Shown here piece by piece: positions 18,447 to 55,370 of a stretch of DNA of 64,000 bases. Location of the stretch: NCBI GenBank assembly GCA_036924285.1, contig JAYKYS010000010.1:2542001-2606000 (forward strand), read 5' to 3'. The position numbers were made by a program, and so were the translations under genes. Position 1 is the stretch's first letter. Every line of letters begins with the position of its first letter. Source of the DNA: Asterella californica. Taxonomy: Eukaryota > Streptophyta > Marchantiopsida > Marchantiales > Aytoniaceae. The notes beneath the pieces are model-generated. The model searched no databases, was not told where the DNA came from, and saw nothing but the letters and a program-made list of their open reading frames with translations.

Positions 18447-18599
18447 TGTCGTGCGCATACACATCGCTACACAATATACATCGCTGTCAAAGGTACATCA
18501 CACACACACACAACACATGGTTTTTTCGCACAATAGCGATGGAGGTTGTTGGTGGTGAGGAGAAGGAAACTGCTACAGGACTGCAACCGGAGTGCCAAC

Positions 18600-20660: not shown

Positions 20661-20929
20661 CAAACCCGCACTTCAACCCGAAACAGGTCACTTCAACACA
20701 TTCTGTCAAGTTTCAGCAGCGCTTCCGCACTACCTCACCACCAAATCGACAGAGAACAGGTTCAGATAACACCCATCCACACAGCAATCGATTACAACAC
20801 CAAAACAAACCACTCCACGCACACGCGCACCCGCACCCACAAATCGAAGAAATCAACGATTTTGTCAACTCCGGAGATACCACCGGCAGCAATTCACGAC
20901 CTGAAATCTCTCAACCAGGCCTCGCAATC

Positions 20930-21135
20930 TGAGTTCAGATCTCACTCACAAGACTACCCACCATAGCCAAGAGCTTGAAGGCTCAACTTGAAGAACTGAG
21001 GTCTCCAAGTCCTACCTGCGAAGTATACCCCTTGTGGACACTCCCACCAACTTGCCATAACTGCACTAACGGTCTTACCGGGATTCTTCACTTTGCACTC
21101 GGTCAACCTAGTTGAGTAGCCAAACTAACATGACA
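20930..21135 (-). repeat. 5' terminal repeat of the deleted copy
   Basis: About 206 bp aligning with 48835-49035 of the main copy (shared GAGTT, AGAGCTTGAAGGCTC, CACTAACGGTCTTACCG, GCACTCGGTCAAC). Its outer end is TGACA on the + strand, that is TG... in element orientation. Confidence 0.7.
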
Positions 21136-30107: not shown

Positions 30108-33100
30108 ATGGAGAGTTTAGCAGCAGCAGGATCACCAGCAGTGTTGTCCTGGTCATTGTGGTCGTGCAAGCCTCGTATGCCTTCGAAGTGTTTGGGTTCG
30201 TCCTCTGTGAGTACCTGTCTCCAACATCATCTTGTCATTGATAGTTCGGCTGGTCGGTCGCGGGTTTCTTTATCAGTCCGGATATTCATCAGGATTCCTG
30301 GTCCGATGATAGTGATGGAAGGTCTTGTCGAGCCGCGGAGACGGACAGACTGATACGGCATGAAGGGGTTTGGTGTTTTATGGGTTTAGCTTATTGTCTT
30401 GAAAAGGGCAGGTTTTCCCTTATTTTGCCTTGGGGACTCTACCAGATGATAGGATGGCTTTGTGGGTTTATCTTTGTAGGAGACTTTAGTAGTGAGAGGA
30501 CGTTTTGACTGTAATCGAGAGGGAATTGCTGTTGCGGTGGTTTCTTTTCTTGATTAGTTTGAGGCTGGGGGGAGTTTTCTCTGTGTTTGTTTGAATCAAG
30601 ATTAGTTGTCGGTTGTGGCTGTGGGGAAGCAGAGTGGCTCTTGTGGATAGGCATCCTTCTATTGGACCGTCGATGGTGCGCATGGGACAGGTTGGTCATG
30701 TTCTGATTTATCCTCGTTCGTCTTGTGTCCTGGTTAATGCAGAAAGGTGAGCTCATCAAGTTTCCAGCTCAATGCTTGATTTTAGATTGCAGTAAGAACC
30801 ACCTGGTAGGTTACCCAGCAACTACGAATGTGCTGTACCCTTCTTCTCTCCCTCCTGTGTTAGCAGTTGGACGCTCTGATATGGATGAATGATATTCCAT
30901 GAGCTTATTTGACCTCTACTGCTGGGCTTGGATGAACCACTCGTCTAGAAAAGCTCGATTCAAGGACATCTCAGTAAGGTGCAATTGTTAGTATGCCCGT
31001 GAAAATTTAGGATTTGGAAGTAGCACTGAAATACTTGTGATCACTTCATCTTAGGAAGGATACGGTACACATTTCGGCAGCACAATTCTTGTATAGCAGT
31101 CACAATTCTTGTCTCGCCTGCTTGCGAACAGATTGGAGCTGAACCGGAGGCCGTTAGAAGAAAAGATGGAGTGAGCAGACAAGCGAGACGTTTGGTAATT
31201 CTACCAATGCCTTCCTGTAGTTTAAATCTCTGAATATGTGAACTTGGCCATACTTCTATCTGGGAAGGTCCGAGTAAATCCGATGGTGAATGCCTCTCTT
31301 ATTTCTTATCGTTTCTTGTCCTAGAATGCCGCCATATCAGGTCCATTTTCGAGTCCCAAAACTGGTACTCTTGGTGAGGATCGTTTCAAGGATGGAGCCG
31401 TTCCTGGTACCTATTGGAATGACAGGTACATTTTCCTCCTGGTTGGTACTCCGAGTCAAAGATACTTGTGCTTCCGCTCGAAAATCTAAGAGATCAGAAA
31501 GACTTCAAGACTAATACTTCCTCACATCAGTGCCCCACAACGAACATATTTATCCCCGGGATGAGCTCGAGAGGCACCTATCTGTCAGGAGGATGTCAAG
31601 ACACATCATAGCCTCTGCTCGTCTCACTGAATCGAGAGGGTCTCAGTCTAATCTCTAAGTCCGAAACTATTTATATTGCTTTCGTTAGGCCAGAGAGTGA
31701 GGCTGTTGAAGTACCCAAGAAAGGTGAGGATTTCTCCACTAATGAGTACACTCTCGTTAAATTCCACTCTGGAAACGAGACCGGTTCTGTAGTAATTACA
31801 GCGTCGCCGTTGACTGTTCAGACGCCCTCTCACTCATATAATGTCGTGCGTGATATATTATTTCTTGTCATTCGTCCGATATAATGTATCTGCTGTGTTG
31901 TTTTATTGCAGCCTTGACTTAGGAGAGAAGACAACCGTTTGTTTCAACACAGGCTCAAATAGAGTAAGGGTCATTATGATCTTTCTTTCCCATTGTTTCA
32001 AGTTTCTTTTTGTGGTGGTATGACAAGAAATCATGTGCATCAAAGGGTACATTCGTCCATTTTCTCTTGCTGTACATAGGGTTTCTCAACTGTTTGCTCA
32101 CAATAATTCAAGGTACCCACTGGTATATCCTCTCTGCTTCCTTACTGTCACCTCCCCGTTTGTGGGGAACCCGAGTTGAGTGGGTACCCCTGACAACTAA
32201 TTTTTACCTTAGTACTGTAACTTTGTATGAGGTCCTTGTAGAGGAGCTGTTTTTGTAATCAGGGATAACAAGACAACGGCTTGAACTCAAGGAGAATAAT
32301 CCATCGTTTCCACTGCCTTATTCTCTCTGCCTACTTATTTTAATCTACCTCTCTGGACCCTGGTTATATGGTGCACAGAGTCATTGATTTTCATCATGAC
32401 AACCTCCTTTCTGTTACTAGTTCCCGTTTGGGGGGTCATTTTTGGTGAGGAGTTGGACCTATAGCGCGGACCATCCGTAAGTTGGGGAATCACGGGTAAC
32501 TGTTGGAGGAAATTCCTTGATGCAGCCGATTACCTTACAACCAACCTAGCTTGATCAGGTATCGATGATGTGAGTGCTAAGCAGATTTTAAAGCTCTGTC
32601 GGACTTCTGCGCGCATATGCACCCACATCATTGAAGTAGATGAGTCATTCTAGGAACTCAACCATGCCTGTACGGTGGCCTGTGCAGGTAGTAGGCTGAG
32701 TGATTGTAATCGTTCAAAATGCTCCTCACAGTATCCGAGAAGGTGGGCCGCAATAGAGAGCTGAACAACGCTCAGCGGAAGTTGATTTGTCTTCATAAGG
32801 AGGCCACATCCATCACCAATCGGGAGTTGAGTCTATGGGCAACCGAAAAGTTCCAGTTTCCGGTGTCGGAGATGACCATCTCACGCACACTCAAAAGGAG
32901 AGATCAATGGATCTCAGACAAAGCATCACCCGATGGCAAACGTGCACGCAAACTTGTCTGCCCCGAAGTAGAAGAAGCCACTTATGCTTGGTTTCTTGCA
33001 ATGCAAGACAAGGGGGCCACTCTTACCGACGCGTTGGTGTGTGAAGCTGCCAAGCGCTTTTATTCAAGCCTTGAACATAATTCTGCTACAAAGCAACTTG

Positions 33101-36100
33101 TCTTTTCACATGGTTGGCTGGGACGTTTCAAAAAACGACACGGTATTAAAGGATATGTGAAGCATGGTGAGATTGTTCCACTTGAGACAAGGCAACAGAT
33201 GCCAGATCAGATTGATGCTATCAAAGCAATCTTATCTGATTTTGAGCCTGGAGATATCTTCAGTATGGAGGAGACGAGACTTGTCTACAGGCTGGAACCC
33301 AATAAAGCCCTAGCAGCCAAACGGACGAGTTTCCTCCAGAAGGCTAACGAGAGAATCACCGTCGCCCTCACAGCCAACATGGATGGAAGCGTCAAACTTC
33401 CCCCTCTGGTTATCAACAAATACTGCAAGCCTCACGCCTTCGTGTCAAGGAATATCTCCAACCCCGCTAATGTCGGCGTCCTTTGGCACGCGAATCGATT
33501 AGCATGGATGAGTATCACTATCTTCGAGAAATTCCTACAGGACTTTGAGAACAGAATGATGTTTGCAGGCAAGAAAAGAGTCTTGCTGCTTGTGGACTGT
33601 GCTCACAGCCATAAATTCGCCAACTTGGAGAAAGATTTGAAAATCACTGTCGTCAGATTTATCCCGAGTTCTTCTGGGCTTGGTCAACCGGGAGATAATG
33701 GACTGGTGAGTTGCTTCAAGGCTTACTACCGCACGCTCCTGCTCAAGCATCAGTCACACTCTCGTTCGATTGGGAAGGATGCCAGGATTGATGTATATAA
33801 TGCCGTTGTTCTTTTGGAGAAGGCATGGAGGACACATGTGACGCCAATTACCATCTCCAATTGCTGGAGATATACCGAACTGTGTAGGAAGAGATCGCAG
33901 CCTGTTATGCTCGAAAATCTCAATGGTTCTCCCGGGCACTGGCAACCGAGGTACTCTTTCGAATTGAATGAGCAACTCACGGAGATTTCTGAATTGCTGG
34001 AGCACTATGGAGACCAGTCAACTGGAATGGTTGCCGATATGTCTGCCCAGGAGTATGTCCACTTTGAGGAGCAAAATGGGTTTGCAACCTCCCGTGAGCC
34101 CAGCGAAGATGAAATTTGGGAAGCTTCGTTATCTACCGACGAGGTGGAGGAAGAAACTGATATGGATGGGCCAGTTGAGAATGTGCCACTCATCAGTTTC
34201 TCTTCAGTCCAAAGCTCCTTGGAGAACATCGCCATGTACTTACTCCAGCAGCAAGAAGATGTGACAGATCTGCTGCAGAAATTCAGAGTTGTAGATAGCA
34301 ATTTAGCCAGTCATCACAAAACAGTAGTTAGACAACGTGATATAACCCGACTCTATATTACGAATGGTTGAAGTAAAAAGTTCCAAAAAGTTCTTATAGA
34401 TGGCGCTCTCCTTGGAAACGCATGACTCTTCCTCTGGCTTAACCAATAAGATCCTGTGTTAGATACTCTGTTGGGACGCATTCTGTTGCACTGCAGTGGG
34501 TGGTTGGATTATCCTGGAAGAATGGAGTTCGTTCCCTTTTTTCAATATCTGAGCGTTTACTGTGTATATGCAGCAGTACTCTCTTACTAGCTGTGAGGCA
34601 CCACGGGTCACGTTAAGCGGTGCATATGTAGTGAAGGACGATTGATGGTTCAGTAGTTTATTCGATGGTACTGACTTCTTCCGCCGTGGGCGTTTCAATA
34701 ATGCTGCAGTTGCTTGGTTTGGCTGTGAAGGAAGCCTGAGCAAGCATGTTAGGATGGATTGTGCCTTCGCTTGTTGGAAGAGTAAACCCGCAATTCCATA
34801 CTTTTTACTTATATACGTTACTGAGTTTAAAGTTTTGGGTTGCCTCAGGTCTACCTGCGTAGCTTTTGCATCGCGGTGCTAACCACATGTAGTGGCACAT
34901 AATGTACCGAGAATCGCTATTCGGTTGTGCAAATCCAGTAAGGACTGAATCCTCTGACAGATGCGTGCTGTTTGTGCAGAATCATCACTAAGGTGGGAAG
35001 TTTGGGTGTAATAATGTGCCTGTTTCTGCATATCTCTAGTATGGACGAATATATATCTTTTGGATCAGGAACACTAGAATGCAAGAAAAATGATAATCTT
35101 CTTGCATATGCTTCTTAGGGCGTATTTACCTCTGACTAGATAGCGATCCTTGACAAAATCTGCCATTCTCGACGCATGAATATATGCTTCTTAGCATATA
35201 TTCATACGTTCTGTTCTGTTCGCCGGTAGGTAACCCATTTTAAAGTGTCACTGAGGTGACATTTTGAAGTGTCACAGTGGCAATGAATGGCACCAACGTA
35301 GTCACACTGAGTGGTTTCTTCAGCTGCGTGGTTTGGCAGTTGCAGTTGGGGTAATAGTGAGGGCTTTTCAGGCATTGTGATCAATTTACAACCAAAACGT
35401 CCGAAGGACAGTTCTGGAGCTGGTAGCGGAAAGAAATCCATCAATTGCGCACCCGTAAAAGATTACCAAACCATTGAAACTCACGGTCAGTCAGAACGGA
35501 GAGATATTGAGAATGCTCCTCCACTTGGAACTATTTAACGCTCCATTCTGATTGTACGTATGACCTCCGAACCCATCTCACACCCGGTTGGAAATGGAGA
35601 CCGAAGGTGATGAGTTTGCTGGATTGTTTACCTGACCGTAGAAGACAGTAAAGTCGTCGGTTGGTCTTTTTGAATTGTGGATTGTTGTCTTTGGAGGTCG
35701 TGGAAGTGCTCAGAGCCTCACACGTTTCATACCGCTAACTGCTTGTCCAGTATCTGATTATTCCATCGATATGTCTTGTACTTGTTGATCCAGTTCGCTT
35801 CTCATCTGCTAGCATCAACGCACCTCACTACGAATCATTCCATAACCATCGCCATTATTGCGGAGGTTTAGGATATGATGTATGACCTAGATATTGTTTG
35901 TCTTGTTTTTGAGGCCTCTTTCGCTGTGGAGCTTATGACCTAGCTATTGTTGTGTGGTTGTCTGAACTATTGGAAGCCTGCGGAATCCGGCAGTCACTTC
36001 ACAATGGCTCTGTGAGTTCTCACTGTTCAGGGATGGTCGTCAAGGCATCGAACTACAAAATAATGAATGACGTCACCTGTGTTGCAGGTGAGTGTGCAAT

Positions 36101-38454: not shown

Positions 38455-38529
38455 ACTTGAGTTACACAAATTCATAAATAACTCAAGTATACAGGACTTC
38501 TTTGAGTACTCTCTTAATACTCAAAGAAG
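38455..38529. repeat. two adjacent perfect hairpins at the left edge of the large element
   Basis: First hairpin: ACTTGAGTTA 38455-38464 with TAACTCAAGT 38479-38488. Second: CTTCTTTGAGTA 38497-38508 with TACTCAAAGAAG 38518-38529. The second runs into the point where similarity to the right terminal repeat begins (about 38522). Confidence 0.75.
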
Positions 38530-38671
38530 AACTAAGGCCTCCAAGTCTTACATGCGAAGTTTATCCTTAGTGAGCTCTCTTACCAACTCGTCTTAACGGC
38601 ACTAACGGTCTTATCGGGATGCACCACTTCGCACTCGATCAACTTAACCGAGGTGCCAAACTGACGTGACA
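38522..38671 (-). repeat. left (3') terminal repeat, truncated
   Basis: About 150 bp matching 48885-49035. By hand count about 13 of some 144 positions differ, 12 of them transitions, and in 11 the left copy has T or A where the right has C or G. Similarity stops abruptly at about 38522 against a hairpin. Confidence 0.8.
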
Positions 38672-38943
38672 ACTGTCGTGCGCATACACATCGCTACACA
38701 ATCATACATCGCTGTCAGAGGTACACCACACATACACATAACACATGGACGATGTCATACACATACACAAGTGTACCACAATCCCCCCCTAACTGGCGGT
38801 TAGGTCCCTCTAACTCCAGATAGCTCTATATCCCAACTACGTGATATACACTTTCATGGGTGCAAGGATCAGAAGACCGGGTGCTACATCGTCCCATCGT
38901 TAGTGCAATCCATATCACGCAAAGAACTAATCGACTATCCTTG

Positions 38944-39447
38944 CTATATACATCGAGGACAAACCCACCGTCCAGTAGGAACGACATTGAGAGGTGGGGT
39001 CAAACATGACATGTGCCAACCTCTCAAACAACCATCACACACCAACATACGGGCTGCTCCACCAGCAAACCCACACAACATACACCTCAAGCCCGCGCGT
39101 ACAACTGCTAAGCTTGGGTCAACAATACCATCAATGTTGGGAAGATGACATGGCGCGCAATTACGCACATGGTCCTTCCACACAACACCATCACGGCCTT
39201 CTAACATGAGTACTCCAGAAGGTAACACCTCACGAGTGTGCCCTGCGGTCACATCCAACATCGTCGGTGCAGTCTGCTGTAGATAGATATAATCGTCAAG
39301 ATGAAACTTGCGAATTGACGGTCGATAACCTCCTCCTCGGATAGTCGCATATCGCAACGTGTCTCTATGCTGAGCAATCGCTAGGTTCTCAAAAGCCATA
39401 GACATAACTCTCCGAAATGTCTCTGCTCGTTGAGAACATGCTCTCAC
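38944..39447 (-). pseudogene. integrase C-terminal module plus PHD finger
   Basis: Continues the integrase frame across an in-frame TAG at about 39448. Residues 1-90 resemble the region after the integrase core in gypsy elements (RDTLRYATIRGGGYRPSI; FHLDDYIYLQQ). Residues 121-167 are a textbook C4HC3 PHD finger: C122, C125, C137, C140, H145, C148, C163, C166, with GWH and the conserved Trp161 before the last pair; the frame then ends at once. PHD fingers usually bind the histone H3 tail. In chromoviruses a chromodomain occupies this position and steers integration, so the PHD may do the same here. That is inference. Confidence 0.88.
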
Positions 39448-40036
39448 CTACATATCCGGGTCATCAAGATCCAGCACCTCAGCAGAATCACGACGAATGG
39501 CCGAAGGTAGATCTGGATCTCGGCCATACAATAAAAAATACGGTGAGAAAGAAGCCAAAGACGCTTGTCGGCTGAAACGATAACCCATAGCCAACCATGG
39601 TAACTGCACATCCCAGTCTCCCAAGTGACCTTTCTGCAAGCCATACTTGCGCAATCCTCTCTTTACCGTCTGAACTACCCTCTCCGCCAAACCATCCGCC
39701 TCAGGATGATCTCGAGATGTAGTCCGATGATCAATCAACGCCTGATCGCACAAGACCTGAAACTCACCAAGAAACTCTGTACCTTGGTCTGTCAGCACTT
39801 CAGCTGGTGCTCCAAAACGACTCAGCACTCGATCTAAGAACGCGTACGCTGTCCCTTCACTCGCCTTGTCTGGTAATGCCACCAACTCAATCCGCTTGGA
39901 GAAGTGCTCCATCATATCGGTGGTGACGTACGGTCAACGGTAAGGGTCCCGCAAAATCCAAACTCCAACGGTAATCCAATCCCATAATCGATAAGGGGTG
40001 TAACTGTGGAGTAGGAGCATTAAACGATGCTCGTAC
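39448..40036 (-). pseudogene. integrase catalytic core
   Basis: The frame 39915-39448 contains VLTDQGTEFLGEF (second catalytic Asp) and SRDHPEADGLAERVVQ (catalytic Glu). The segment up to 40036 carries the first catalytic block (WSLDFAGPLP) in another frame, so there is a frameshift near 39930. It ends at an in-frame TAG before the C-terminal module. Role: strand transfer of element cDNA into the genome. Confidence 0.88.
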
Positions 40037-40951
40037 TGTAACGACCTATGTTACACATAGGAAGTTTGTCTATTAGTAAGATGTTTAGTTCTAACTAAGT
40101 GTTGAGAATGTTTATTTGCTGCCAAAGTACTTTTAAGAGATATCAAGTTAGTCATGACTAGCTAAAAGTTAGTTATGCTTAAACTTAGCTGTACTTTTGG
40201 CAGAATTCAGATATTTGCTAAAGAGTGAGTACTACTATCTTGTCATCTTGTCTAAAGGTAGAAAGGAGGTGGAAAGTATCCCTTATCTCCTTTTTGACTT
40301 GATATTAGTGGTTGGATTAAAGTTGTGGACTTTGTGGGCATTAAAAACAAGAAGAGATTCCACATGTTTCCTTTTTAGTGGGTCCTAGTGTAGAGGAGGG
40401 GTGGAAATTCGAGATTCCTTGAGAATATTCCAGAATCCTTCTAGAAGTTGTTGACTTTGAAGGAATAAGCCCATGTGAAAAGGTAAAAAGCCCATGTGAT
40501 CAATGCTTTTACCTTAAGTAATATCTTAGTAAAACCCGGTAAAAGTAGTTACGGCTGAGTTACCGGAGAGTACCAAAGTAAAAACCTAGAATGTATAAAT
40601 AGAGGAGTAGAGAAGAGCTCCTCATCCTTGTTTTCACATTGTCGTAATGACAACTTGAGTAATATAGAGAGTGTGGGATATTTTTAGCATGTGAGAACTT
40701 GAGAGACGTCGTTATAATGGAGGATTTTAGTTGATGTGTTTAAGGAGATTTTTAGTTGATAAGTTTGTGGGTGTATGAGTGAGTGAACTCAGCATTTTCC
40801 CTTCAAGTTCATGGTGTGCTTCCATCAAAGCCATCAGAGGTGACCCCTGAGTGAGAGACAGGCCCGACATGTTGCAATGTTCGTGGATGACGATCGTGGA
40901 GGTTGAGAGATCGGGGGGGTAGTTGATCGTTAGGACCGCGGAGGGTTTACA
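40037..40951 (+). mobile_element. solo LTR (915 bp) of another family
   Basis: Starts TGTAACGACC and ends GGTTTACA (TG...CA), flanked by GTAC on both sides (40033-40036 and 40952-40955), a 4-bp target duplication. Removing it and one GTAC brings the interrupted integrase frame back into register, which confirms the edges. A TATA box and downstream sequence suggest + orientation. No internal element coding is present, so an intact insertion has recombined to a solo LTR. This is younger than the host element. Confidence 0.9.
40594..40601 (+). promoter_or_regulatory. TATA box of the solo LTR
   Basis: TATAAATA in the middle of the LTR, followed by a GA-rich then CT-rich stretch. Position is typical for the U3/R boundary. 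Confidence 0.55.
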
Positions 40952-41792
40952 GTACTCGATCACAAATCACACATCGTGCAACAAATTGTTGCACATCGAC
41001 GTGCATACCACGCCACCAATACTGTCCTTGGAGTAAGCTATGCGTACGCTTCACTCCAAAATGTTCCAACTCCTGATGGGCATGTCGCACTAACTGTGCC
41101 CTTTGGGATGGATGTGGCACTATCCGTATCCTCCCATCACCCCACACTCGAAGTACATGTCGTCCTTCTCGTCGAAATCTCTTCGCTCGTTGAAGGACAC
41201 GATCTCGCTCCTTGACACTTACTGTGCTTACTACCACACTAGTACGTAGATACTCCATCACGATCACATCATCATGGATATCTCGCTGGTCTGGAACACC
41301 ATCTCCGCCCTCAGGATCTGGAGACTCATTATCTACTCTCTGATCAGAGAAAGATACAACTTGGTCCTCCATACTAGAGTTCATGGCCAACACACAAAGA
41401 AAGACAGATGCATGCCACCTTGACACTATCTCTTCATCAACCTCGTCATGCCATCGAGCCCCAGTCTGATCCTGCTGACTCGTGCACGGGTTGCGACTCA
41501 ACCCATCGGCATCTAGGTTTGCAATTCCAGGTCTATGTACTACATGGAAGTCATACTCCTGTAAGATCAGAGCCCATCGTGCAAGCTTCTCTGTAAGCTT
41601 GTCGGACTCCATCAACCACTTGAGCGGCTGGTGATCAGTGATGAGAGTAAAAAGGTTCCCAAACAGATAACATCGAAAGTGTGCAACAGCCCACACTGCT
41701 GCCAAACACTCTCTCTCATACGAACTATACCTCGCCTGAATTGTTGGAGCGACTGGCATACGCCACCACGAACTCCTTTTTCTCATCATCAT
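40947..41792 (-). pseudogene. RNase H and integrase zinc-binding region
   Basis: Starts within RNase H (ARYSSYERECLAAVWAVAHF; LITDHQPLKWL; FHVVHRPGIANLDADGLSR), followed by a variable linker and the HHCC zinc-binding module (RHAHQELEHFGVKRTHSLL ... FVARCVICD). It ends artificially where the solo LTR enters. The N-terminal boundary overlaps the preceding frame, with a one-base shift near 41760. Confidence 0.9.
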
Positions 41793-42150
41793 GCTGAGTC
41801 AGCACTGCTCCAAGTCCCAACATACTCCAATCGGTGTGCAGTTGGAAAGGACGCCCCCTAACGGGTCTCCTCAAGATGGGAGCAGATGTCAACCTATCCT
41901 TGAGCTCTACAAAAGCTCGTTCCTGCTCATCTCCCCACTGCCACTCCTGGTCCACCTTCATCAGCTTGGTCAACGGCTTCGCAATTGCACTAAATCCCTT
42001 CACGTATCGACGATAAAAGTTCGTCAAACCAACAAATGCTCGAACTCGACTCACATCTGTGGGACGTGAGATACGTGCAATAGCCTCAACCTTCGTCTGT
42101 TGAACACCCAACCCACCTGGATAGATGGTGTGACCCAGATACTCTACCAA
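41725..42150 (-). pseudogene. RT thumb and start of RNase H
   Basis: VEYLGHTIYPGG and VRAFVGLTNFYRRYVKGF are typical of the gypsy RT thumb/connection, then FQLHTDWSMLGLGAVLTQ with the first RNase H Asp. It follows the RT palm in the same frame across an in-frame TAG. Confidence 0.9.
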
Positions 42151-42153
42151 CTC

Positions 42154-42588
42154 CTAGAAGAACTTACACTTCTCAGGGTGTAACTTCAACCCATGAGCTC
42201 TCAACCGCTCAAACACATCCCCTAAGTGTCTCTCGTGCTCCTCCACTGTAGCACTATAGACTAAGATGTCGTCAATATAACATCTGACAAAATCCAATCC
42301 TGCTAGGATTCTGTCCATCACCCTCTGGAACTCAGCAGGGGCGTTCTTCAACCCAAATGGTAAGAACCGCCACTGATACAAACAATCCTTGTCGTGAGAG
42401 TCAATTTCCCAGAATGCTGTCTTGGACTTATCTTCTTCTCTCACTGGCAACTGATGATACCCTGCTCGAAGATCCAAAGTACTGAAGACCTTCACATGCC
42501 CCACTGCATCAAAGATCTCCTCAGGTATCGGCATGGCATATTTATCGGACTTCGTCTGCCGATTGATAGGACGGTAGTCTCCACACAT
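42154..42588 (-). pseudogene. reverse transcriptase palm
   Basis: CGDYRPINRQTKSDKYAMPI, FSTLDLRAGYHQLPV, FLPFGLKNAPAEFQRVMD and VRCYIDDILVYS (catalytic DD) give the complete palm of a Ty3/gypsy RT. It ends at an in-frame TAG after EKCKFF, and the same frame goes on downstream. One C-to-T change from CAG would explain it. Confidence 0.93.
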
Positions 42589-42609
42589 CTCCCTATCCGT
42601 GTAGTTGTA

Positions 42610-42930
42610 TTACATATCCTTCTTGGCTGGCATAACTGTGGCAGATGCATACTCTCCATGCGACATCTCCACCAATCCAACCTCCAACAAGTCTTGAGTC
42701 CGACTCTGGATCAAGGCGCTCTCCATGTCACTGTATCTGTAAGGACGTCGAAAGATTGGCGTGTCATTAGCCAAGTCGATCCGTATACCAGGTCCCTTCA
42801 AGGTACCCAAATCCTTCATACTGAAGGCAAAACAATTCCTGTAGCTCTTCAGGAATCTTTGAACTCTTCGTCTCTCCTCTCCTATAAGCTTGGGTCCAAT
42901 CTCCGGCTCCCAAGTATCCTCTGTCACCAT
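42610..42930 (-). pseudogene. reverse transcriptase N-terminal segment
   Basis: IRIDLANDTPIFRRPYRYSD and EVGLVEMSHGEYASATVMPA correspond to the RT fingers region. It is followed by an in-frame TAA before the palm. Confidence 0.85.
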
Positions 42931-42960
42931 GCTAGAGGTAGAAGACGAAGTCGTTGACTG

Positions 42961-43476
42961 CTATCTTGCAGCCTCTGGAGCAGTTTCCTTCTGCTCACCA
43001 CCAACAACCTCCACCGCTACTGTGCGTAAAACTTCTGCAGTTCTAGCTGCAAACTCCACACTCTCTCCTATGACATCCCATGATGTCCAAGGATGACGAA
43101 CTCCACGTGCCTCGCCCCCAGCCTTTGCCTCCACCGACCCGGTAGGCAAAGAGCTCAAGAGTGCTCGAGCAGTAACACCCATCGATCGTATCCGACGCTG
43201 CTCAGCCAATCCAAGGCTAACAATCCATGTCAAGCAATTCAAGTCCATTGCTTGACCCAATACTTGACGACGTGAAACCTCTGACACCGAAGCTACTGCC
43301 GTCGTACTCGTAGCGAAACCCATCGCTCGCTCTCTCTCATCGGCATTGGGCTCCACCAACTGCCGCAATTGAGCATTCCACACAAGCCCAGGTCCTCCAT
43401 CTCTGTAAGCATGTGACGCTGGAAAGCTTACCAAAGTAGGTAACGCTACCATGGGCCGTCCCACTAGGTTCATCAC
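42961..43476 (-). pseudogene. C-terminal part of the DNA methyltransferase
   Basis: Contains ADERERAMGF followed about 20 residues later by RRQVLGQAMDLNCLTWIVSL, which match the end of DNMT3-type methyltransferases (the ...ERE...MGF... and RxxLG...L motifs IX-X). It overlaps the upstream frame by a few bases in the -1 frame, so the enzyme is split. The extended tail after it has no counterpart that I know. Confidence 0.8.
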
Positions 43477-46451
43477 TGCCTGGGTGACCTATCGACGACT
43501 CTCACTACTTGAGATCGTCGTCCTGCATCCAAGATGCTATCAACCGTGAGATGTGTTGGTCGTCTCACTCCATCGTGTGCTCGCTTAAGCACCTCTCTCG
43601 GTAACAAGTTCGTCCACCACAACCGTGGACGATGTGCACGAGATCCTACTCTCGCTGCATCCAACAACACTGCTGGTCCAATCCAAGACCGCACTTGGTG
43701 CACACTCACCATCATCTGTGTACGAGCATCACCCAACAAAGGAACGTTCTCCAAGATGTACGCTGGAGAATCCACCTGATGCATTTGGAGATGTCGTAAG
43801 ATCCGTAACATCTCCCAGAACATCCTAGATCGCGGGTCATGTAAACCCTGACCTCTCTCAGCACGCGTGTGACCTTGACATGGCCATCCGGCTATCACCA
43901 AGTGAATGGTGCCAACAAACGTAAGATCTTGCGCCCCCAGCAGCGAAATATCCGACGTTAATGCTTGCTGGTATCCTCTAACAGCTGATATGGGCAACAA
44001 CTCAGGATATCTCTGCATCAAACGTGCCACATGTCGCAATGAGATGCGTCTCGCAATCTCATCTCTCTCCACATACAAGTATTGCTGTACTTGTATACCT
44101 GCCTGCAATACCGCAGCCAAACCTGTGGTGATCCTTCCAAACAGCTCCAGCAGACATACACCCTCTTCTGGATACTGCCACATAATGGGAGTCGTATCCA
44201 ACGGTGATAAGGTCATAAGGCCAGTAGCAAGAACAACCCTTTGTTCCTCTACTGGTGGTACAAAGGCTTCACTCCAAGCCTGCTGCACCAACTGATCAGC
44301 ATACTGCTGCAACTCTCCACTCGAACTCCAGAGTGGAACATCCAAGGCAGATGGTACTAACGTAGACATGCTAGGCATGTCCTCCACCTCCTCAAAGACC
44401 GGAGTATCCTCCGCATGGACATTGCCCTCCAACAACTCGCCCGGCCAAGTGATGACCGAACTGAACCCTGCAACGGATGCCATCGTCCCTGGTGTAGGCT
44501 CCGTCGTCCCAACTCTAGCACTGAACCGCACTGGTAAGCGACTCACTCGTCTCTCACCGGACTGCCAACCTGATCTGTAAGATGCTGTCTCCGTCCAATA
44601 GTCGATCACGAACCCCATAGGGTACAACACAGCACCTCCCACCAATACGTCATAAGACTCTACGACTGTAACGATGGCCTTGACTCTCACCATAGAGCCA
44701 TCCGTGGGGTGATCTGGCCGAACTCTCACCGTCAACATCTCACGTGTCATGTGTAGAGCCGTACCTCCTGATCCTCCTAGAGATATCTGCAACTGGAATG
44801 GACATCTCTCTATCTCGGACTTCTTCAGACCCAAACCAATACATGCCGCCTTTCTCAACATCAACGGTTGGGCTCCAGAGTCTAACAAGACCTTCTGGGG
44901 TCGATACACTTTCCCTGAAGGTGCCACCAAACACAAGATACCACTTCCGTTGTCCAACAACACCACACCTGGTGCCAAACCAGCACGGTCAATCGCCGGC
45001 CTAGCTGGTAACTCATCTAACCTAGCAGCCGCCGCTTGCCAAGTACCACTGATAGCTGTCCTGATCCTCGACTCCATGGACACGTCTACCGCCTCTCGTT
45101 GAACTACTTCAGCACTAGAGATAACTACATCCTCTCTCTCACTGAGCGTGGCCGCCAACTGGAACACTGGAGCCAAGTTGACTCCTAATGCTCTCATATC
45201 CGTGGCTGAGAATAGTGGGGCTCGCAAAACTGCTGTAGCCGCCTCCAACATCGAGTTCGACGTCGCATCCATAGACGTCGAAGGTGGACTCACATCACAC
45301 TCACTCTTGGATGTCGATGCCTCCAACTCTACTGCACCATCGGTAGGTCGTTTAGGAATCATAGATGTGATCCTCAACGCCTCCGATAACGTGAACGACT
45401 GGGGAAGCTTGGCCTGTCTACCAGCCTCCCCGCGTTGTGGATCCAACTCCACTGACGCACCTCGTGGCTCAGAGGCACGTACTGCACCTCTAGTCATTGC
45501 CGCAGATGTCTCAATCTGCGCCACACCAGCCATGAAGTCGAAGTCACCTCCTTCTCCTCCATAAGACGTGGAAGCCTCTGTTCCACCTGATCTCCGCTGA
45601 GCCATAGTCATACTAGCTATCCTCTGCTCCAACTGCTCAATCCGAGCAGCCATACCTGCTTCTGACGTCGTAGCAGGCGGTGGACCGACCGGTCCTCTCC
45701 TAGGTGCTGGAACTCTACCTCCAGCTCGACCACCACGGCCTCCTTGAGCTCCTTCGCCTCGTCCACGATCAGCCTTCTCTTGCCGCAACTCGGGATGGAA
45801 ATCAAAATAACGGTCACTACTGTGACCAGGTCGTCCGCAATGCTCACATTGCCTAGGTGCAGTGTGAGACGTTCCTGACGTCTCATAACCACCTCTCCTC
45901 TGTGGACAGTCTTTTTGCTGATGAGGACCATCACACGTCCAGAAAGGACCCGCTTGCTGGTGGCTAGAGAAGGACGGCATGGGCTTCTGCCCACCAGATC
46001 CTCCAACACCTCCCTGAGATCGTGACTGCTCCGTACGATCCTTATCACCACCACCACCACCACGCTGTTGCGTAGCCTGTGATCGAGTGGTCGTTCCATG
46101 TGGTGTCTCCTTGCTGAACCCAGCAACCACCACCCTCTCCTCCACCATGTTGAGCTCAATCCGCTCAGCCAGACTAAAGACAATCGCCAACGTCGGAGCG
46201 GTATCTCTAAAGAGAGTAGCATCTCTAACTCTCTTACGCAGCTCCCGGTCTAATATCCCATACCAGAACTGGACTGCCTGTGCTTCCGTTACCCCTTGGG
46301 TAACGCTGATCAGCGTTACCCAAGGGTAACGCTGATCAACCGCCTCATGCGAGTAAACGCCTCGCGTAGGCTCTCTCCAGTCTTCCGCTGGAACTCCTGC
46401 AGACTCCTCAACTTGTCGGTCCGCACACCCTGATAGTTCTTCCTCAAACAT
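43473..46451 (-). CDS. gag C-terminus, aspartic protease and cytosine-5 DNA methyltransferase
   Basis: 992 codons. Residues about 47-115 are gag C-terminal (AQAVQFWYGILDRELRKRV). At 170-216 are degenerate zinc knuckles (C173-H177-C182; C202-C205-H210). Residues 265-285 form a short coiled coil and 290-515 a variable linker. The protease has VLLDSGAQPL with the catalytic Asp524. Residues 760-992 are a methyltransferase with motif I (ELFGRITTGLAAV, 769-781), the catalytic PCQ loop (GWPCQGHTRAERGQG, Cys858), motif VI (YILENVPL, Glu901) and motif VIII (SRAHRPRLWWTN, 937-948). The GIQVQQYLYVERDE and VLLDAARVGSRAHR blocks resemble the DNMT3 group. The target-recognition part and motifs IX-X continue in the -1 frame downstream. 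In motif I the usual Asp/Gly after LF is Gly-Arg. The annotated start at 46451 is only the first ATG; the true upstream coding is gag, before the palindrome. Confidence 0.93.
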   Translation of the reverse strand: MFEEELSGCADRQVEESAGVPAEDWREPTRGVYSHEAVDQRYPWVTLISVTQGVTEAQAVQFWYGILDRELRKRVRDATLFRDTAPTLAIVFSLAERIELNMVEERVVVAGFSKETPHGTTTRSQATQQRGGGGGDKDRTEQSRSQGGVGGSGGQKPMPSFSSHQQAGPFWTCDGPHQQKDCPQRRGGYETSGTSHTAPRQCEHCGRPGHSSDRYFDFHPELRQEKADRGRGEGAQGGRGGRAGGRVPAPRRGPVGPPPATTSEAGMAARIEQLEQRIASMTMAQRRSGGTEASTSYGGEGGDFDFMAGVAQIETSAAMTRGAVRASEPRGASVELDPQRGEAGRQAKLPQSFTLSEALRITSMIPKRPTDGAVELEASTSKSECDVSPPSTSMDATSNSMLEAATAVLRAPLFSATDMRALGVNLAPVFQLAATLSEREDVVISSAEVVQREAVDVSMESRIRTAISGTWQAAAARLDELPARPAIDRAGLAPGVVLLDNGSGILCLVAPSGKVYRPQKVLLDSGAQPLMLRKAACIGLGLKKSEIERCPFQLQISLGGSGGTALHMTREMLTVRVRPDHPTDGSMVRVKAIVTVVESYDVLVGGAVLYPMGFVIDYWTETASYRSGWQSGERRVSRLPVRFSARVGTTEPTPGTMASVAGFSSVITWPGELLEGNVHAEDTPVFEEVEDMPSMSTLVPSALDVPLWSSSGELQQYADQLVQQAWSEAFVPPVEEQRVVLATGLMTLSPLDTTPIMWQYPEEGVCLLELFGRITTGLAAVLQAGIQVQQYLYVERDEIARRISLRHVARLMQRYPELLPISAVRGYQQALTSDISLLGAQDLTFVGTIHLVIAGWPCQGHTRAERGQGLHDPRSRMFWEMLRILRHLQMHQVDSPAYILENVPLLGDARTQMMVSVHQVRSWIGPAVLLDAARVGSRAHRPRLWWTNLLPREVLKRAHDGVRRPTHLTVDSILDAGRRSQVVRVVDRSPRQ
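46294..46325. repeat. perfect 32-bp palindrome from a snap-back insertion
   Basis: Each arm is CCTTGGGTAACGCTGA, with no loop. GGGTAACGCTGATCA also occurs as a direct repeat at 46298-46312 and 46324-46338, 26 bp apart. The related copy at 20.3 kb lacks the insert. Confidence 0.92.
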
Positions 46452-47012
46452 TGAAAGAACTGAACCACAAGGTTAAACCCTGGTGGTATCCCACTCACAC
46501 TACCACCTGCTTCACTACCTGTGGACGCACCGCTGGTAGTAGGTACTCCGCCACCTGCGACTGTACCACTGCTACTGGCACCCGAACTCGCAGGTGCTAC
46601 GCCTCCCGAAACTACGCCAGTAGTGATAGAAACGTAGTTGGGAGACCAATGTTGTCTCCACAACTCGATCACAACACTGTAATCTCGCCTGAACTCATGA
46701 TAATCGTCCATCGGCGGTCCCTCCAAGTGCTGGAACAAACCCTTCCACGCCATGAAGGGTGTAAACAACTGTGGGTTCCGCATCTGCTGCAGATCGCTAC
46801 CAACTGTCGAACTCCTGGATGAAGTCATCCAGCTCAATGATACCAACTGTACCCGAGTAACGTCGAGGCCCCTTCGTGGTCCCATAGATCTCATCCATGT
46901 CCCATAAAAACGGTGTGGCGACACTAGACTCACCACCAGAAAAGGCGCTGTCTGCGTCTGACTCGTTCTCTGGAACAATCGACGGCAATGGTGTAGCTAG
47001 TCGATACTTCAC
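46316..47012 (-). pseudogene. gag N-terminal and central region
   Basis: The frame 47012-46797 starts MKYRLATPLPSIVP and ends in a gag-like opening (RRYSGTVGIIELDDFIQEFD). The frame 46796-46316 continues with FTPFMAWKGLFQHLEGPPMD and the Retrotrans_gag-type helix LQEFQRKTGESLREAFTRMR. A frameshift near 46800 and the 26-bp insertion at 46294-46338 break it from the rest. Role: capsid protein. Confidence 0.75.
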
Positions 47013-47794
47013 CCCACTCCGTGTATACCCACTGTCCGAAAAGTCCCCACCAGAACCTCTCGAGAACTCCGTGATGAGAGAATCCCGCTAACACACTCTC
47101 CAACCGGAAGCCGCAATCTCCGTCACCACCGTAACCACCACTTGCCTAACCCCGCTCCTACTGAGCTCACCTATCCCCTACTAGGACGGTCAAGGTAAGG
47201 GCAACCTGTACCTGCCATCACCACAGGCAACCTCTCATGGTCTGTTGATCGTCACTCCAACCGCACTGTGAGAGAGACAAAGGTAGTCTGACCGGTCCGC
47301 AACTCCAACCTCACTACCGACAGCACACTGGAGTGAACTCACTCCGGAAATCAAGCGCCAACACAAGCAAACGCGGCGCACAAACATGAAGCAGAATATG
47401 GAGGGGTTCCAACCACAAGAAGTCCAAACGATAACCCTCCACACTCAAACATTCACATAAAGAGAAACCCAGCCCCACCCGGACTGACGTCTCCTCGTCG
47501 ATGACCACATGCACAATATATGGTCACCAACAGTCGTAACTGACACTGGAGGTCACTAACTAGATGTCTACACCTCTAGTAGCTCCAAAAATATCCACGT
47601 GGTAGCTCTACTAGCTCACCCAAGACAACTGTCTCCATACGCGTCTCTATGGTATAGGCAAACACTACCACAACTATAGCTTACCCCTAATACTATGGGG
47701 TCGCCTTACCACTCCTCTAGGAACGTGCGGGAAGGTCTCCTACTACCTTATACAAGTCCATAAGTACTTGCACGCATCTCTGTAAGACACCAAG

Positions 47795-47880
47795 AGCTAT
47801 TGGTCTAGTGGTAAAGCCAAAGCTAAGACTACAGAGTTAGGAGTCCAGGTCCAGGAATAGTGTTGGGATGGGTGACCAGC
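47795..47880 (+). ncRNA. tRNA/5S-like Pol III promoter remnant
   Basis: TGGTCTAGTGGTAAAG (47801-47816) fits a tRNA box A, and GGGATGGGTGACC (47865-47877) is identical to the box C region of plant 5S rRNA. Between them there is only a weak box B. It could be a 5S/tRNA-type SINE fragment inside the leader of the element. It folds neither as a full tRNA nor as a full 5S rRNA. Confidence 0.35.
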
Positions 47881-48082
47881 TGATTTTACCTTTCCCACAC
47901 AACTGAAGCTTGGATACCTCTCTCACGCACGCCAGCAAGCTGGCTTGCGGCGGACGCGGGCTCGAGCTCAGGCTCAGCTCCGCTCCACCTCCGCACTCCG
48001 CTCTCACGCCTCCGCACTCACGCACCTCTGCTCCTCTAAGCGCCTCCTAACACGAACTCCACACCTCGACATTCCCGCTCAC

Positions 48083-48110
48083 TCTCCGCTCCGCTCCGCT
48101 CCGCTCCGCT
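48083..48110. repeat. (CTCCG)n microsatellite
   Basis: Five to six units of CTCCG in the leader of the large element. Confidence 0.9.
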
Positions 48111-48834
48111 TGAAGTAGAGTACAACGGACACAACACACCAAAAGAGACTCGGCTCCACCTCGAATTGCAGAAGATTGCACCAAAAGAGGCTCCAAAACA
48201 GCAAAAACAGCTTACGGGTGCACACGGGTGACCAAAATCTGACGTAAAACAGCAAGAACACCCAAATCCAAACCGAACACCACCACAACAGATTCACGAA
48301 TGCACAAGACACACTTCGCGAATGCACACACACACAACAAAACTCCTAAACTCGAGTTTTCACACGAAATTGCACCAAAATCTGACGTAACTAGTCTTTT
48401 TGCACTTGCGGGTGTCACGACAGCGAACTTCGACATGCCATAACTTCTTCAATCCTTGGCCAAACTCCACGAAACTTAGTGCACTAGAATTGTCAAATGC
48501 GCTTCCAAAGAGCCCACTCCGCTTGACATTGACAAGTCCTCCGTCTGCCACGCCCAAACGCGCAATCCGGCTCCAACAACACACTTCAAGAACATTCCGC
48601 AAAATTTCTGCAGCGCTTCCGCATGACAGAAATCTCCACTCGACCCCAACAACAGCAAATAGATCTGCGACCAGCAATGTAGCATGCACCTCGGTCTCGA
48701 TCTCGATCTCAGACCGCCTCGACCTGCACTCAGTTCTTCGAGTAATCTGAATAGAGAAATTACCATCTCCAACACTACAACACTGATTACTCACAAATGG
48801 TCAAGCCAAACCCACTCTAAACGCGAAGAGAATC

Positions 48835-49035
48835 TGAGTTACACTCAACTAGACTATTCACCATAGCCTGGAGCTTGAAGGCTCTTCTCGAAGAACTAAG
48901 GCCTCCAAGCCCTACCTGCGAAGTTTACCCTTAGTGGGCTCTCCCACCAACTCGTCCTAACGGCACTAACGGTCTTACCGAGATGCGCCACTTCGCACTC
49001 GGTCAACTTAGCCGAGGTGCCAAACTGACGTGACA
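48835..49035 (-). repeat. right (5') terminal repeat
   Basis: Ends TGACGTGACA on the + strand, that is TGTCACGTCA in element sense. About 150 bp pairs with 38522-38671, and the whole 200 bp pairs with 20930-21135. The inner end was set at TGAGTTACAC by comparison and may be longer. Confidence 0.7.
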
Positions 49036-52041: not shown

Positions 52042-55000
52042 CTAAGCCCCGCTATCAGTAGCTCTAAAATCGCCAGTCGCACCTATAATGTCGGAGACCA
52101 AAAAATCAGTACCTCTATCTACAACAGGTGCACCTGAAGAGGCATCGCCTACTGCGATTGCTCTTCTGTGAATGGCCCCTGCTAAAGCTCTCTGTAGAGC
52201 AATGGAAACCCGCTGCCTGAAAAACATGGTGCAGAAAGAAAGAGAAAGTGGTACCCCCTGACGCCTCTCATGGTAGGCTCTAGCGCACTCTCGCAGAAAG
52301 ACGTCGAACTCCAAAGCTGTCGATCCATATATCTCCAAGGCTAAGGGGATGAAGCGATGTCCCGCTTGCATACCCCTATACTTGGATACCTTCGTTGCTG
52401 CCGCCACGCCTGCAGCCCATCCTGGGGGATGGGTGATCACCTGTGCCGCCACTGAGTCCCGTGTCGGATCCGTAACAACCACATCAGCCACTGAGACCTG
52501 ATCCTCCCTCATCATGTACAGGTCTGCTCTGACTGATCCTCCCGTCTGAAGGGCGTACCAACGCTCTCTCCACGTCATGTGACCGCTCTCCCGTGCTAAG
52601 GCAAACACGACGTCTCTGATGGCATCGTGGGTGGCTATCCGCTCTCCACCGTGAGGACATCGAGCAAGATGACGACCCGCGGTGTCGAGCGAGACACCGC
52701 ACTCGCAGGTGGACAGTGCCGAAGCAACAGGCTGGACCAAGCCTAGACGAAACCTCATCGCTGTAGAGAAGATAGTCGGTGCGAGTCGGAACGCTCTAAT
52801 GCAAGGTCGAGCTATGAGCCAAGAGCCTGCGCCCTTGCCTGAACAAGAGCGGAGTCGAGCCCTAGTATCTCGTGAGATGGAAGGATCCACTAAGAGTGCA
52901 TGGAGAACCTGGTGGAAGTGGTGTCCTGTCAGAGAAGACTGTAGTCCGCGAGATCCATCGGAAGGTAAGGAATCGAATCGAGGATGTGCCTCACGTGCCT
53001 CAAGAGTCAAACTGTCTCTTGCCTCGCGAAGACACATCTGTAGTGGGTAAGAACCATCCTCCACCTCTGTCACATAGCTCTCCAAGATAGGTCTATCTCG
53101 CACGAGAAAACGACCACAGAGCCAAGGTGCTGAGAGGGCCCAACTACCCAAAAAAGCTGCCGCAGCAGTCTCCTCCATGGATAATAAGCCCACCCCGCCA
53201 CATGATATTGGCAAAGATGTCTGTCTCCGTGCGAGAGGTCCTGTCACACAGTCAAAGGTCCCCGGTCCTATGATGTCGCCAAACACCCCCATGATCTTCC
53301 TATCAAACTCTCTAAGGCGCGAGATGAAGATAGGAGATGGGGGTACTGTGCGGAGTAAGTAACAAGGACGTCGTGCTATGGAAGAGGAAAGGATACCAAA
53401 AGCAACCTGTGGGTCCTCTAACATAGGGAGATCCTCGATATGCATAACGTCCTCCGCAAGAGCAACATCTAAGAATCGAGAGACAAAGTCCTCTGTACCC
53501 ACGGGTACTCCGAGGATGCGTAAACCATCTGCAGGGGTAACAAATCCCTCTGGGAGCTGTAGGTCCGACGGTATACCTATGGGAGACCAAGCCTTGCACT
53601 TTGACACCTTCGTCCTCAGCCCTACCAAGGCCAATTGAGAGACAAGGTGATCAAAGGCAACACCGACTTGGTCCGCCGGACCTACGATGTGCGTATCATC
53701 AGCTAGAGATGGAAAGACACAACCTGGAGCAGCCAAGGCGGTGGCGAAGAGAGCTCTATAGTGAGCTAAGGCGAAGAGAGGTCCACCCAAAGGATCTCCC
53801 TGGCGAGTCCCCGCAGCAGAGCTGATGATTGTAACCCCCTCTATCGTAGGACCGTGCTGGTAATAAAGAGAAGAGGAAGAACCATAGAACGATCGCACGA
53901 AAGGAACGAGACCCGCCAGAGATCCTCCACCATCCATGAGCTCTCTAAAAATAGAAGCGCGGGAAACACTATTAAAAGCGTTTTCCACGTCTATCTGTAG
54001 GACCACCCAATCGGGATGGATGTCCAAGAGAGCTCTAATGCCGAAAGACACAGACTCACAACCTCCCGGCGTCGCAACTCCAAACTGATGTGGACAAAGG
54101 TGGTCCTGGAAAGTATCTCGAAGCTGAAGAACAATGGTTCGACTGATAAGTCGTAAGAGAATCTCACCGATGGCTATCGGTCGGATCCCTCCACCATCCT
54201 TCGTCATGGCCAAAAGTCTAGCTGCTCCCAGTACCTGAGCTATAGACTGAGGAATATGTCCCTGAGCTACTGCTGCCGCTACCTGAAAAAGCTCCGTGAA
54301 ACCGCTAGAGGGGTCGTCTGTCTGAAAACAATCCCGTAGATGCTCGTAGACCATCCCAGACAGACCTCCAGAAGATAGACGTGGAGCTGTACACAAGGCC
54401 TGGGCGAACAAAGATCTATCGAGACATAATGGCTCCTCAGGCTGATAGTCCTGAACCTCAGGTGGTGCGGGATCACCCGATGAGGGATGAAAGAAACGCA
54501 ACGCAGCGATCGTCTCCTCAGTAGGACAAGCCAATGACAAAGGATGCAATGCTCTGGCAGCTCTACTATACTCTCCTACCTGACCTAACATCCTACAACG
54601 TCGTATGCGAGCGGAAGATGAGACATCACGTGTAGAGGCAGACTCACTCCTACCTCGAACCGCACGGACTGATTCCTCCTGTAAGGCCGCCCAGTCACCT
54701 GCTCGGAATCTCCGAAGACGGACCGCCACCTCCCGATGTCCTCCTCTGCCACCTCGAGTATACCGGAGACACCAACGAGAAAGTAACAGAAACAATAACC
54801 ACGCCGCCTCGTCCTTGGTGTTCCGTGCCAACATGTCGAGAGATAAACGGAATGCCTGTCTCACCTCGTCATGAAGAGCACGAGGTAACCGATGGAATAA
54901 ACGCGGACAAGGAGAACTCGTCTGGAACAAACTCAGAATAGTGCTAGAGTGAGCTCTCAACCACTCCCACGACTCTGGAGGGACTCCAGGAAGAAGGACT

Positions 55001-55209: not shown

Positions 55210-55370
55210 GCACGTAACGCCTGTTCAACTACGCAGATCTTTGGGTTCCAGCAGCTGCCACGTTTCCGTGTTGCCAGAAGTACGTTATGCACGGGCGTTA
55301 CGTGTTAGAGTTGCGTGCGCAACGGTCCGGCTCCAGGAGCACCCGCGCCTTGGCTGAACAGTGAACAGTG

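Follow-up and report, generated by a model that had tools for sequence, protein, structure and literature searches.

A multi-copy Ty3/gypsy-type retrotransposon of Asterella californica encodes both a cytosine methyltransferase and a PHD finger

We examined a 64,000-nucleotide stretch of the Asterella californica genome (GCA_036924285.1, contig JAYKYS010000010.1, forward-strand positions 2,542,001 to 2,606,000; the whole stretch is called the window) and found that the retrotransposon copy at window positions 38527-49035, on the minus strand, is a decayed member of a multi-copy Ty3/gypsy-type family encoding a C5 cytosine methyltransferase and a PHD finger. The element reads, in order, terminal repeat, gag with a zinc knuckle, protease, methyltransferase, reverse transcriptase (RT), RNase H, integrase, and PHD finger. 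A first-pass annotation, made from the letters alone, had proposed a methyltransferase with PCQ, ENV, and R-x-R motifs between protease and RT, and a canonical C4HC3 PHD downstream of the integrase; both placements were borne out. Across green algae and bryophytes, sequence comparison suggests that the pairing marks a lineage of retroelements but is not universal within it.

Pfam matched the open reading frames (ORFs) of the window copy, all on the minus strand, to DNA_methylase (E 2e-7; ORF 43473-46472), RVT_1 (E 1.3e-29), RNase H, H2C2, rve (E 1.9e-9), and PHD (E 8.6e-11; end of ORF 38944-39447); the last value rules out a chance PHD match. The predicted methyltransferase motifs are present as PCQG (motif IV, 43872-43883), LENV (motif VI, 43743-43754), and RPRLWW (43614-43631), accompanied by motifs I, VIII, IX (43315-43338), and X (43252-43272), with a frame break between VIII and IX. 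Over most of its length the coding region is 91-95% identical at the protein level to an open-frame relative; nevertheless, this copy is dead. Its gag frame is broken near 46797 and 46316 and its methyltransferase frame near 43480, ORF2 contains stops or frame breaks, an insertion of ~0.9 kb is nested at 40038-40951, and the 3' end is truncated. The 146-nt direct repeat that bounds the copy (38526-38671 and 48890-49035; 91% identity) represents the A parts of a split-repeat arrangement, described below; in this copy the 3' A is incomplete and no last B follows it (Table 1).

A search of the genome (516.7 Mb, 773 contigs) with PF00145 scored 123 matches among 1250 candidates, a few of which are the host DNMT3 and DRM genes. 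We fetched 16 copies, comprising 15 of the 16 matches in open frames of at least 1360 aa plus one of 1149 aa. The methyltransferase is present in all 16 (with motif IV as PCQD in L009) and the PHD in 15 (14 by pattern and L023 by tblastn at 92%; the exception, L009, is missing its 3' part). Copies with intact ORFs, which the first-pass annotation had suggested looking for, do exist: in 10 of the 16 both long ORFs are open, one of ~1370 aa (gag-protease-methyltransferase) and one of 1038-1041 aa (RT-RNase H-integrase-PHD). When the window ORF covering the integrase end and PHD was used as the query, 150 matches were scored among 3660 candidates, all at least 92% identical, and 36 of these lie in stop-free 1041-aa frames.

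The ends of these copies are unusual for a gypsy element. In 13 of the 16, with both B ends and the junction readable, the layout is A (~294 bp, beginning TGTCACG) - coding - B (~108 bp) - GC - A - B (ending CGACA); L013 reads A - coding - B with no extra A-B, and its target duplication is still present. The two A repeats of each copy are 98.3-100% identical in 13 alignable copies, and exact in four, which marks them as recent insertions. An exact 4-bp target duplication flanks 12 of the 14 copies with placeable outer ends (L009 and L023 are left out of this count), and the other two match at three of four bases; together with the TGT...ACA ends, these duplications indicate that the DDE integrase joins those ends. 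The internal B-GC-A looks like two element ends joined head to tail, to judge from its sequence. The protein order, protease-RT-RNase H-integrase with a DDE integrase, is that of Ty3/gypsy, but split repeats stand in place of two complete long terminal repeats, so we file the family as gypsy by its proteins only; an ordinary long terminal repeat element is ruled out by the split repeats. With DIRS elements the family has the split direct repeats (A-coding-B-A-B), and that layout alone, in common; a DIRS element is excluded both by the rve integrase in place of a tyrosine recombinase and by the target duplications. What the first-pass annotation had called one gypsy element has gypsy-type protein order, but its architecture is widespread and its repeats are not ordinary ones.

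The two ORFs are parted by a single in-frame TAG followed by CAG TCA, in the window and in 15 of 15 copies examined (L024 was left out). The methyltransferase ends ORF1, and RT-RNase H-integrase-PHD continues in the same frame past the TAG. A related element, L096, whose methyltransferase is 50% identical to that of the window family, encodes gag, protease, and methyltransferase in one frame, and beyond a TAG CAA TCA that frame continues into RT; the PHD of L096 lies in a 1047-aa frame, 2967 bases past the start of the RT frame, and hence in phase with RT. (L096 and L101 are on a 9.3-kb contig, CADCWO010000201.1, filed as a Synechococcales cyanobacterium; the retroelement is of eukaryotic type and is likely contamination.) A stop followed by CAR-YYA is the tobamovirus readthrough signal (PMC2194720), which both CAG TCA and CAA TCA fit, with an in-frame continuation. 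From this context the writer would be expected at the level of Gag and the reader on the readthrough product only; the first-pass interpretation of the element thus stands as to the pairing and the positions, but a conserved stop of readthrough type turns out to lie between writer and reader. Such a stop would be expected to yield proteins like the 17 metagenomic ones (P0021, P0148-P0163) that have a methyltransferase but lack RT. The 74 codons past the methyltransferase domain show no visible protein constraint (ratio of nonsynonymous to synonymous polymorphism, pN/pS, of 1.66, on 6 synonymous and 24 nonsynonymous variants). Low synonymous variation 5' of the stop was considered as a signal and not used: the last 60 nt show no third-position change and the last 240 nt little of it, but some other stretches vary equally little.

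The element enzyme is of DNMT3 type, with the unrearranged motif order I-IV-VI-VIII-IX-X and a DNMT3 fold. Host DRM genes were rejected as its source, since the DRMs of this genome (L002, L041, and L042) have rearranged motifs. Motif IV is PCQ or ECQ in element enzymes rather than the PCN of the DNMT3 family; because the host's own DNMT3-type gene (L001) also has PCQ, the PCN criterion is not decisive in plants. Pfam found neither ADD nor PWWP in the element proteins. Among the methyltransferase relatives retrieved, the nearest named ones are from liverworts, Calypogeia (76%) and Marchantia (73%), with identity over nearly the entire domain. Within the window family, pN/pS for the methyltransferase is 0.19, and methyltransferase and PHD are both under purifying selection. 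Catalytic residues are retained in the window family and in a set of 148 well-matching enzymes (score above 200 and span above 280 residues; 147 of the 187 proteins that matched at all, together with the window family), a filter that removes fragments and also degenerate enzymes, the volvocalean ones among them; the profile itself was built from 7 of 11 intended seeds. Rare C-to-T type variants in the ORF1 part fall on 77 of 414 CG sites, 89 of 469 CHG sites, and 180 of 1316 CHH sites, compared with 125 of 1797 for A/T transitions. The excess at CG and CHG is consistent with methylated copies and is silent on which enzyme methylates them.

All eight zinc ligands of the PHD are invariant in 22 sequences, and the full C4HC3 pattern is found in 146 of the 153 PHDs of the retrieved set. 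The position of the ING-type cage tryptophan is glycine in 142 of 152 PHDs and tryptophan in none. By sequence, the nearest PHD chains are those of CHD4, KDM5B, KDM5A, KMT2C, Drosophila Lid, DPF2, BHC80, and DPF3, with ATXR5, BAZ2, and UHRF1 also among them. A fold search placed multi-domain PHF1 structures, with poor rmsd, in its top rows, and gave tight local matches to DPF2/3, BAZ2, ATXR5, and BHC80; some titles among the fold matches name H3 peptides. Several of the PHDs nearest in sequence or fold read unmodified H3. Lying near KDM5 PHD1, BHC80, and UHRF1 in both sequence and fold, and having no cage tryptophan, the domain is, as our best guess from sequence, predicted to be an H3K4me0-type reader. 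On the window ORFs Pfam found this PHD and no chromodomain, so that the element does not fall among the chromoviruses.

The wider search that the first-pass annotation had recommended returned both domains in the genome copies and in many proteins elsewhere. One search for methyltransferase relatives returned 28 proteins (Marchantia, Calypogeia, two Sphagnum species, and metagenomes), and a second returned 86, adding Klebsormidium nitens P0193 and Cymbomonas. An algal integrase-PHD query retrieved 452 proteins; Chlamydomonas, two Volvox, Haematococcus, Pleodorina, and Tetrabaena are named among the matches listed. We examined 120 of the 452: all have a PHD by a profile made here, and 93 match the methyltransferase profile, while Pfam's own DNA_methylase tag is on only 19 of these 120 listed rows. 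In 82 of them the integrase is preceded by 500 residues or more, and of these longer proteins 76 have a match to the methyltransferase profile, which scores above 200 in 68. The domain orders in 214 proteins and two ORFs were RT-methyltransferase (MTase)-integrase (IN)-PHD, 87; MTase-IN-PHD, 38; MTase, 37; IN-PHD, 21; MTase-RT, 8; MTase-RT-IN, 8; RT-IN-PHD, 7; RT-MTase-IN, 4; RT-MTase, 3; MTase-IN, 2; and MTase-RT-IN-PHD, 1. These counts define a chlorophyte type, with the enzyme between RNase H and integrase, and a streptophyte type, with the enzyme between protease and RT. The streptophyte-type elements with a readable end and a PHD are the window family, L096/L101, Marchantia P0024, and P0167; P0164 ends in a degenerate cysteine-rich stretch, and P0166, P0193, P0165, and P0022 stop too early for a PHD call. 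In some chlorophyte-type elements the protein continues past the PHD: the C-termini of P0027, P0031, P0041, P0064, and P0066 carry an extra domain, marked by DPWxGTG and SPW motifs, that may be a second methyltransferase-like fold of the SAM-dependent kind, and a G-patch tag is also present in P0027, P0045, and P0082.

The methyltransferase tree that the first-pass annotation had asked for gave a partial answer. With 77 tips, it set 66 element enzymes (Klebsormidium included) apart from the 11 references, host DNMT3 among them, with support 98; the references are few, namely the host DNMT3 of this genome (two exons), a human DNMT3A fragment (166 residues), and phage and Streptomyces enzymes. 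The 66 were chosen by hand, and P0197, in which RNase H precedes the enzyme, was relabeled from streptophyte type after falling in the other clade. The chlorophyte-type clade has support 99 in this tree and 100 in a 51-tip RT tree, and over 44 elements the RT and methyltransferase distances correlate (Spearman 0.456; 0 of 2000 permutations reach it). The tree separation and the agreement of distances favor an enzyme that was associated with the elements once and moved once. Two results speak against a single association: a tree forced to place the bryophyte enzymes beside DNMT3A and host DNMT3 loses 51.9 log units, but only at an AU p of 0.052 (KH 0.062), and nodes near the K. nitens enzyme are weak (support 45-51).

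We lean, with modest conviction, toward the following proposal, which is drawn from sequence. Most translation would halt at the UAG, yielding abundant Gag-protease-methyltransferase, and occasional readthrough would extend it to the complete polyprotein, whose integrase is tipped by the PHD. The methyltransferase would travel with the particle and methylate new cDNA or the fresh insertion, and the PHD, which lacks the ING-type cage tryptophan and resembles readers of unmodified H3, would guide the integrase to chromatin with unmethylated H3K4. A broader and more doubtful extension, which we offer as tentative, is that a DNMT3-type writer and an H3-tail reader came together in a single ancient lineage of retroelements that has spread through green algae and bryophytes; that most members keep the pair and some have lost one; that UAG readthrough, in bryophytes and a relative, sets the writer at Gag amounts and leaves the reader with the integrase only; and that new copies, arriving methylated and landing in H3K4-unmethylated chromatin, may silence themselves so as to be tolerated. 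Relatives in liverworts and Sphagnum, and many algal elements, encode the enzyme together with the reader-type finger, and the enzyme occupies one of two places in the element; as the pair is common to moss, liverwort, and green-algal relatives, the mobile DNA of this lineage may have carried its own tools for marking chromatin for a long time. The readthrough-type stop would add a dosage device between writer and reader, and young multi-copy insertions in a plant genome make self-marking and chromatin choice by a mobile element testable.

Several observations weigh against this proposal or its extension. Six of the 82 long PHD-bearing relatives lack any methyltransferase match, and conversely P0170, P0173, and P0175 have the methyltransferase and no PHD. 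In five named chlorophyte (volvocalean) proteins (P0030, P0034, P0038, P0056, and P0058) the matching region has neither the cysteine of a PCQ/ECQ-like motif IV nor ENV, indicating that those elements live without enzyme catalysis. The observed/expected CpG ratio in the ORF1 part (0.72) is not more depleted than elsewhere in the window (0.73 and 0.87), and RNA structure 3' of the stop is not beyond that of shuffled sequences (z -0.50; 63 of 200 shuffles equally stable). Finally, the Klebsormidium enzyme gave no methylation in a yeast assay, a result its authors call inconclusive (PMC5890265).

That both domains are chance matches, assembly artefacts, or later insertions in the window copy only, a danger that the first-pass annotation had proposed to check in other copies, is refuted by the methyltransferase at the matching place in 16 of 16 and the PHD in 15 of 16, and by the same order in L096; nothing was found in its favor, and we give it virtually no credence. 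Rather unlikely, in our judgment, is that the PHD serves the integrase C-terminus as a structural zinc module (in folding, multimerization, or DNA binding) and does not read histones. PHDs can have roles other than histone reading, this one directly abuts the integrase C-terminal domain, and it is dispensable in P0170, P0173, and P0175; on the other hand, its ligands and the surrounding residues are conserved, and the nearest solved PHDs include several that, by their titles, are bound to H3 peptides. The methyltransferase might likewise do something other than mark element DNA, such as methylating RNA, silencing rival elements or host defense genes, protecting cDNA from degradation or editing, or acting as a structural or nucleic-acid-binding domain. 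This we hold to be unlikely while granting it real weight: the yeast result and the persistence of elements whose enzymes have lost their motifs speak for it, whereas the retained catalytic residues, the low pN/pS of the window family, and the methylation of CG in yeast by the related SymbioDIRS enzymes (PMC5890265) speak against it.

Expression of ORF2 by reinitiation, from a separate RNA, or by splicing around the stop strikes us as quite improbable. Several Marchantia gene models (P0008, P0014) do join methyltransferase and RT across the junction, possibly through predicted introns, and there is no stable structure downstream of the stop; however, the window copy, 15 of 15 others, and the 50%-identical L096 all share TAG CAR TCA, with both ORFs in one frame. 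More doubtful still is that bryophyte elements took their methyltransferase from host DNMT3 separately, independent of the Klebsormidium and chlorophyte elements. The different place of the enzyme in chlorophyte-type elements and the failure to reject the forced tree at 5% are in its favor, but the well-supported separation of all element enzymes from the references, the log units lost by that same tree, and the agreement of RT and methyltransferase distances are not.

Table 1. Features of the window copy (window positions; residue numbers refer to the family's ORFs).
Feature	Position	Strand	Evidence
A repeat, element 5' end (TGTCACG...)	48743..49035	-	92.5% identity to A repeat of copy L017
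ORF1 residues 1-96, gag start	46800..47087	-	tblastn 90.6%
ORF1 residues 98-256, gag downstream of frame break	46319..46795	-	tblastn 94.3%
ORF1 residues 250-1197: gag, zinc knuckle (45822-45848), protease (DSGAQ 44868-44882), methyltransferase motifs I-VIII	43482..46313	-	tblastn 91.3%, motifs, Pfam DNA_methylase
Methyltransferase domain, approximate limits (ORF1 residues 965-1297), frame break near 43480	43183..44170	-	profile limits; motifs IV, VI, VIII, IX, X
In-frame TAG closing ORF1	42961..42963	-	identical stop in 15/15 other copies examined
CAG TCA immediately 3' of stop (CAR-YYA)	42955..42960	-	CAA TCA in L096; CAR-YYA per PMC2194720
ORF2 residues 1-411: RT and part of RNase H, stop-interrupted	41728..42960	-	tblastn 95.1%; Pfam RVT_1, RT_RNaseH_2
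Remaining RNase H and integrase H2C2 zinc region	40952..41744	-	Pfam RT_RNaseH, Integrase_H2C2; L017 alignment ends 40952
Nested insertion of different repeat within integrase (TGTAAACC...GTTACA; GTAC flanking each side)	40038..40951	-	gap vs L017; borders
Integrase core and C-terminal part	39085..40037	-	Pfam rve; tblastn 93.9%
PHD finger, C4HC3, closing ORF2	38944..39084	-	Pfam PHD E 8.6e-11; 8 ligands invariant in 22-row alignment
First B repeat	38674..38782	-	96.3% identity to B of L017
Second A repeat, truncated, last B missing	38527..38671	-	87.7% identity to A of L017 over 146 nt

Other repeats accompany the element. The repeat nested at 40038-40951 belongs to a family with a member 97% identical near copy L020 (L032), and in a single case a copy of our element, L021, is itself inserted inside a repeat of that family. 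The truncated second A continues, at 38490-38530, into an inverted repeat (CTTCTTTGAGTA...TACTCAAAGAAG) that may be connected with the loss of the 3' end. An internally deleted family member at 18447-21135 (minus strand) consists of A, part of gag/protease, and B, with a perfect 4-bp duplication (CATG); as it has no methyltransferase, RT, integrase, or PHD, it was perhaps moved in trans or deleted later. The window also holds an open 553-aa frame at 32710-34371 (plus strand) whose Tc5-type HTH and DDE_1 transposase domains mark it as a DNA transposon of pogo/jerky-like kind or a gene that descends from one, and an open 1060-aa LINE-like frame with a reverse transcriptase domain at 52042-55224 (minus strand).

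Capture of cytosine methyltransferases by retroelements has been described in dinoflagellates and one charophyte (PMC5890265), as the first-pass annotation had noted; according to one review, transposons that carry methylases are found outside land plants such as tracheophytes (PMC6338049). The same annotation knew of no described pairing with a PHD. In titles and abstract openings of open-access papers (subscription papers, bioRxiv, and Repbase being outside the scope) we likewise found none on methyltransferase-PHD retrotransposons, or on such elements in bryophytes or chlorophytes. The closest described element is KnitGypsy-Dnmt3 of K. nitens, which has a DNMT3-type enzyme in a Gypsy element, under purifying selection, and a DIRS-like layout, its repeats being reported as of DIRS type and its domains as those of Gypsy (de Mendoza et al. 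2018; PMC5890265). The window family shares these features. The word "PHD" was not found in the main text of the K. nitens paper. The K. nitens protein P0193 (KFL_009030040) has the order methyltransferase-RT-IN in a partial gene model ending within the integrase. In the window family, by comparison, the enzyme closes the Gag-protease ORF before a readthrough-type stop, and a PHD lies past the integrase. SymbioDIRS-Dnmt3 and SymbioLINE-Dnmt of Symbiodinium are also retroelements encoding cytosine methyltransferases, but they are tyrosine-recombinase and LINE elements and, according to their authors, independent captures (PMC5890265). The Ginger1-9_HM transposase resembles gypsy integrases and has a PHD as one of its C-terminal domains; it belongs to a Hydra DNA transposon for which no RT or methyltransferase is reported (PMC2836005). 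For the stop, the parallels are the in-frame UAG between Gag and RT in MuLV gag-pol and the CAR-YYA after the stop in TMV and other tobamoviruses (PMC2194720). Unlike these, the window family has protease and methyltransferase ahead of the stop, and its readthrough is predicted from sequence.

Two further systems offer parallels for the reader. Chromoviruses are Ty3/gypsy elements with a chromodomain at the integrase C-terminus; the window family resembles them in having a chromatin-reader-type domain at that position, but it has a PHD in place of the chromodomain, a methyltransferase, and split repeats. DNMT3A and DNMT3B, through their ADD domain, join DNMT3-type catalysis to a PHD-like H3 reader, and the element likewise unites both kinds of domain in one system. 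In contrast to DNMT3A/B, however, it has no ADD or PWWP by Pfam, PCQ replaces PCN, and reader and writer are encoded in different halves of the polyprotein.

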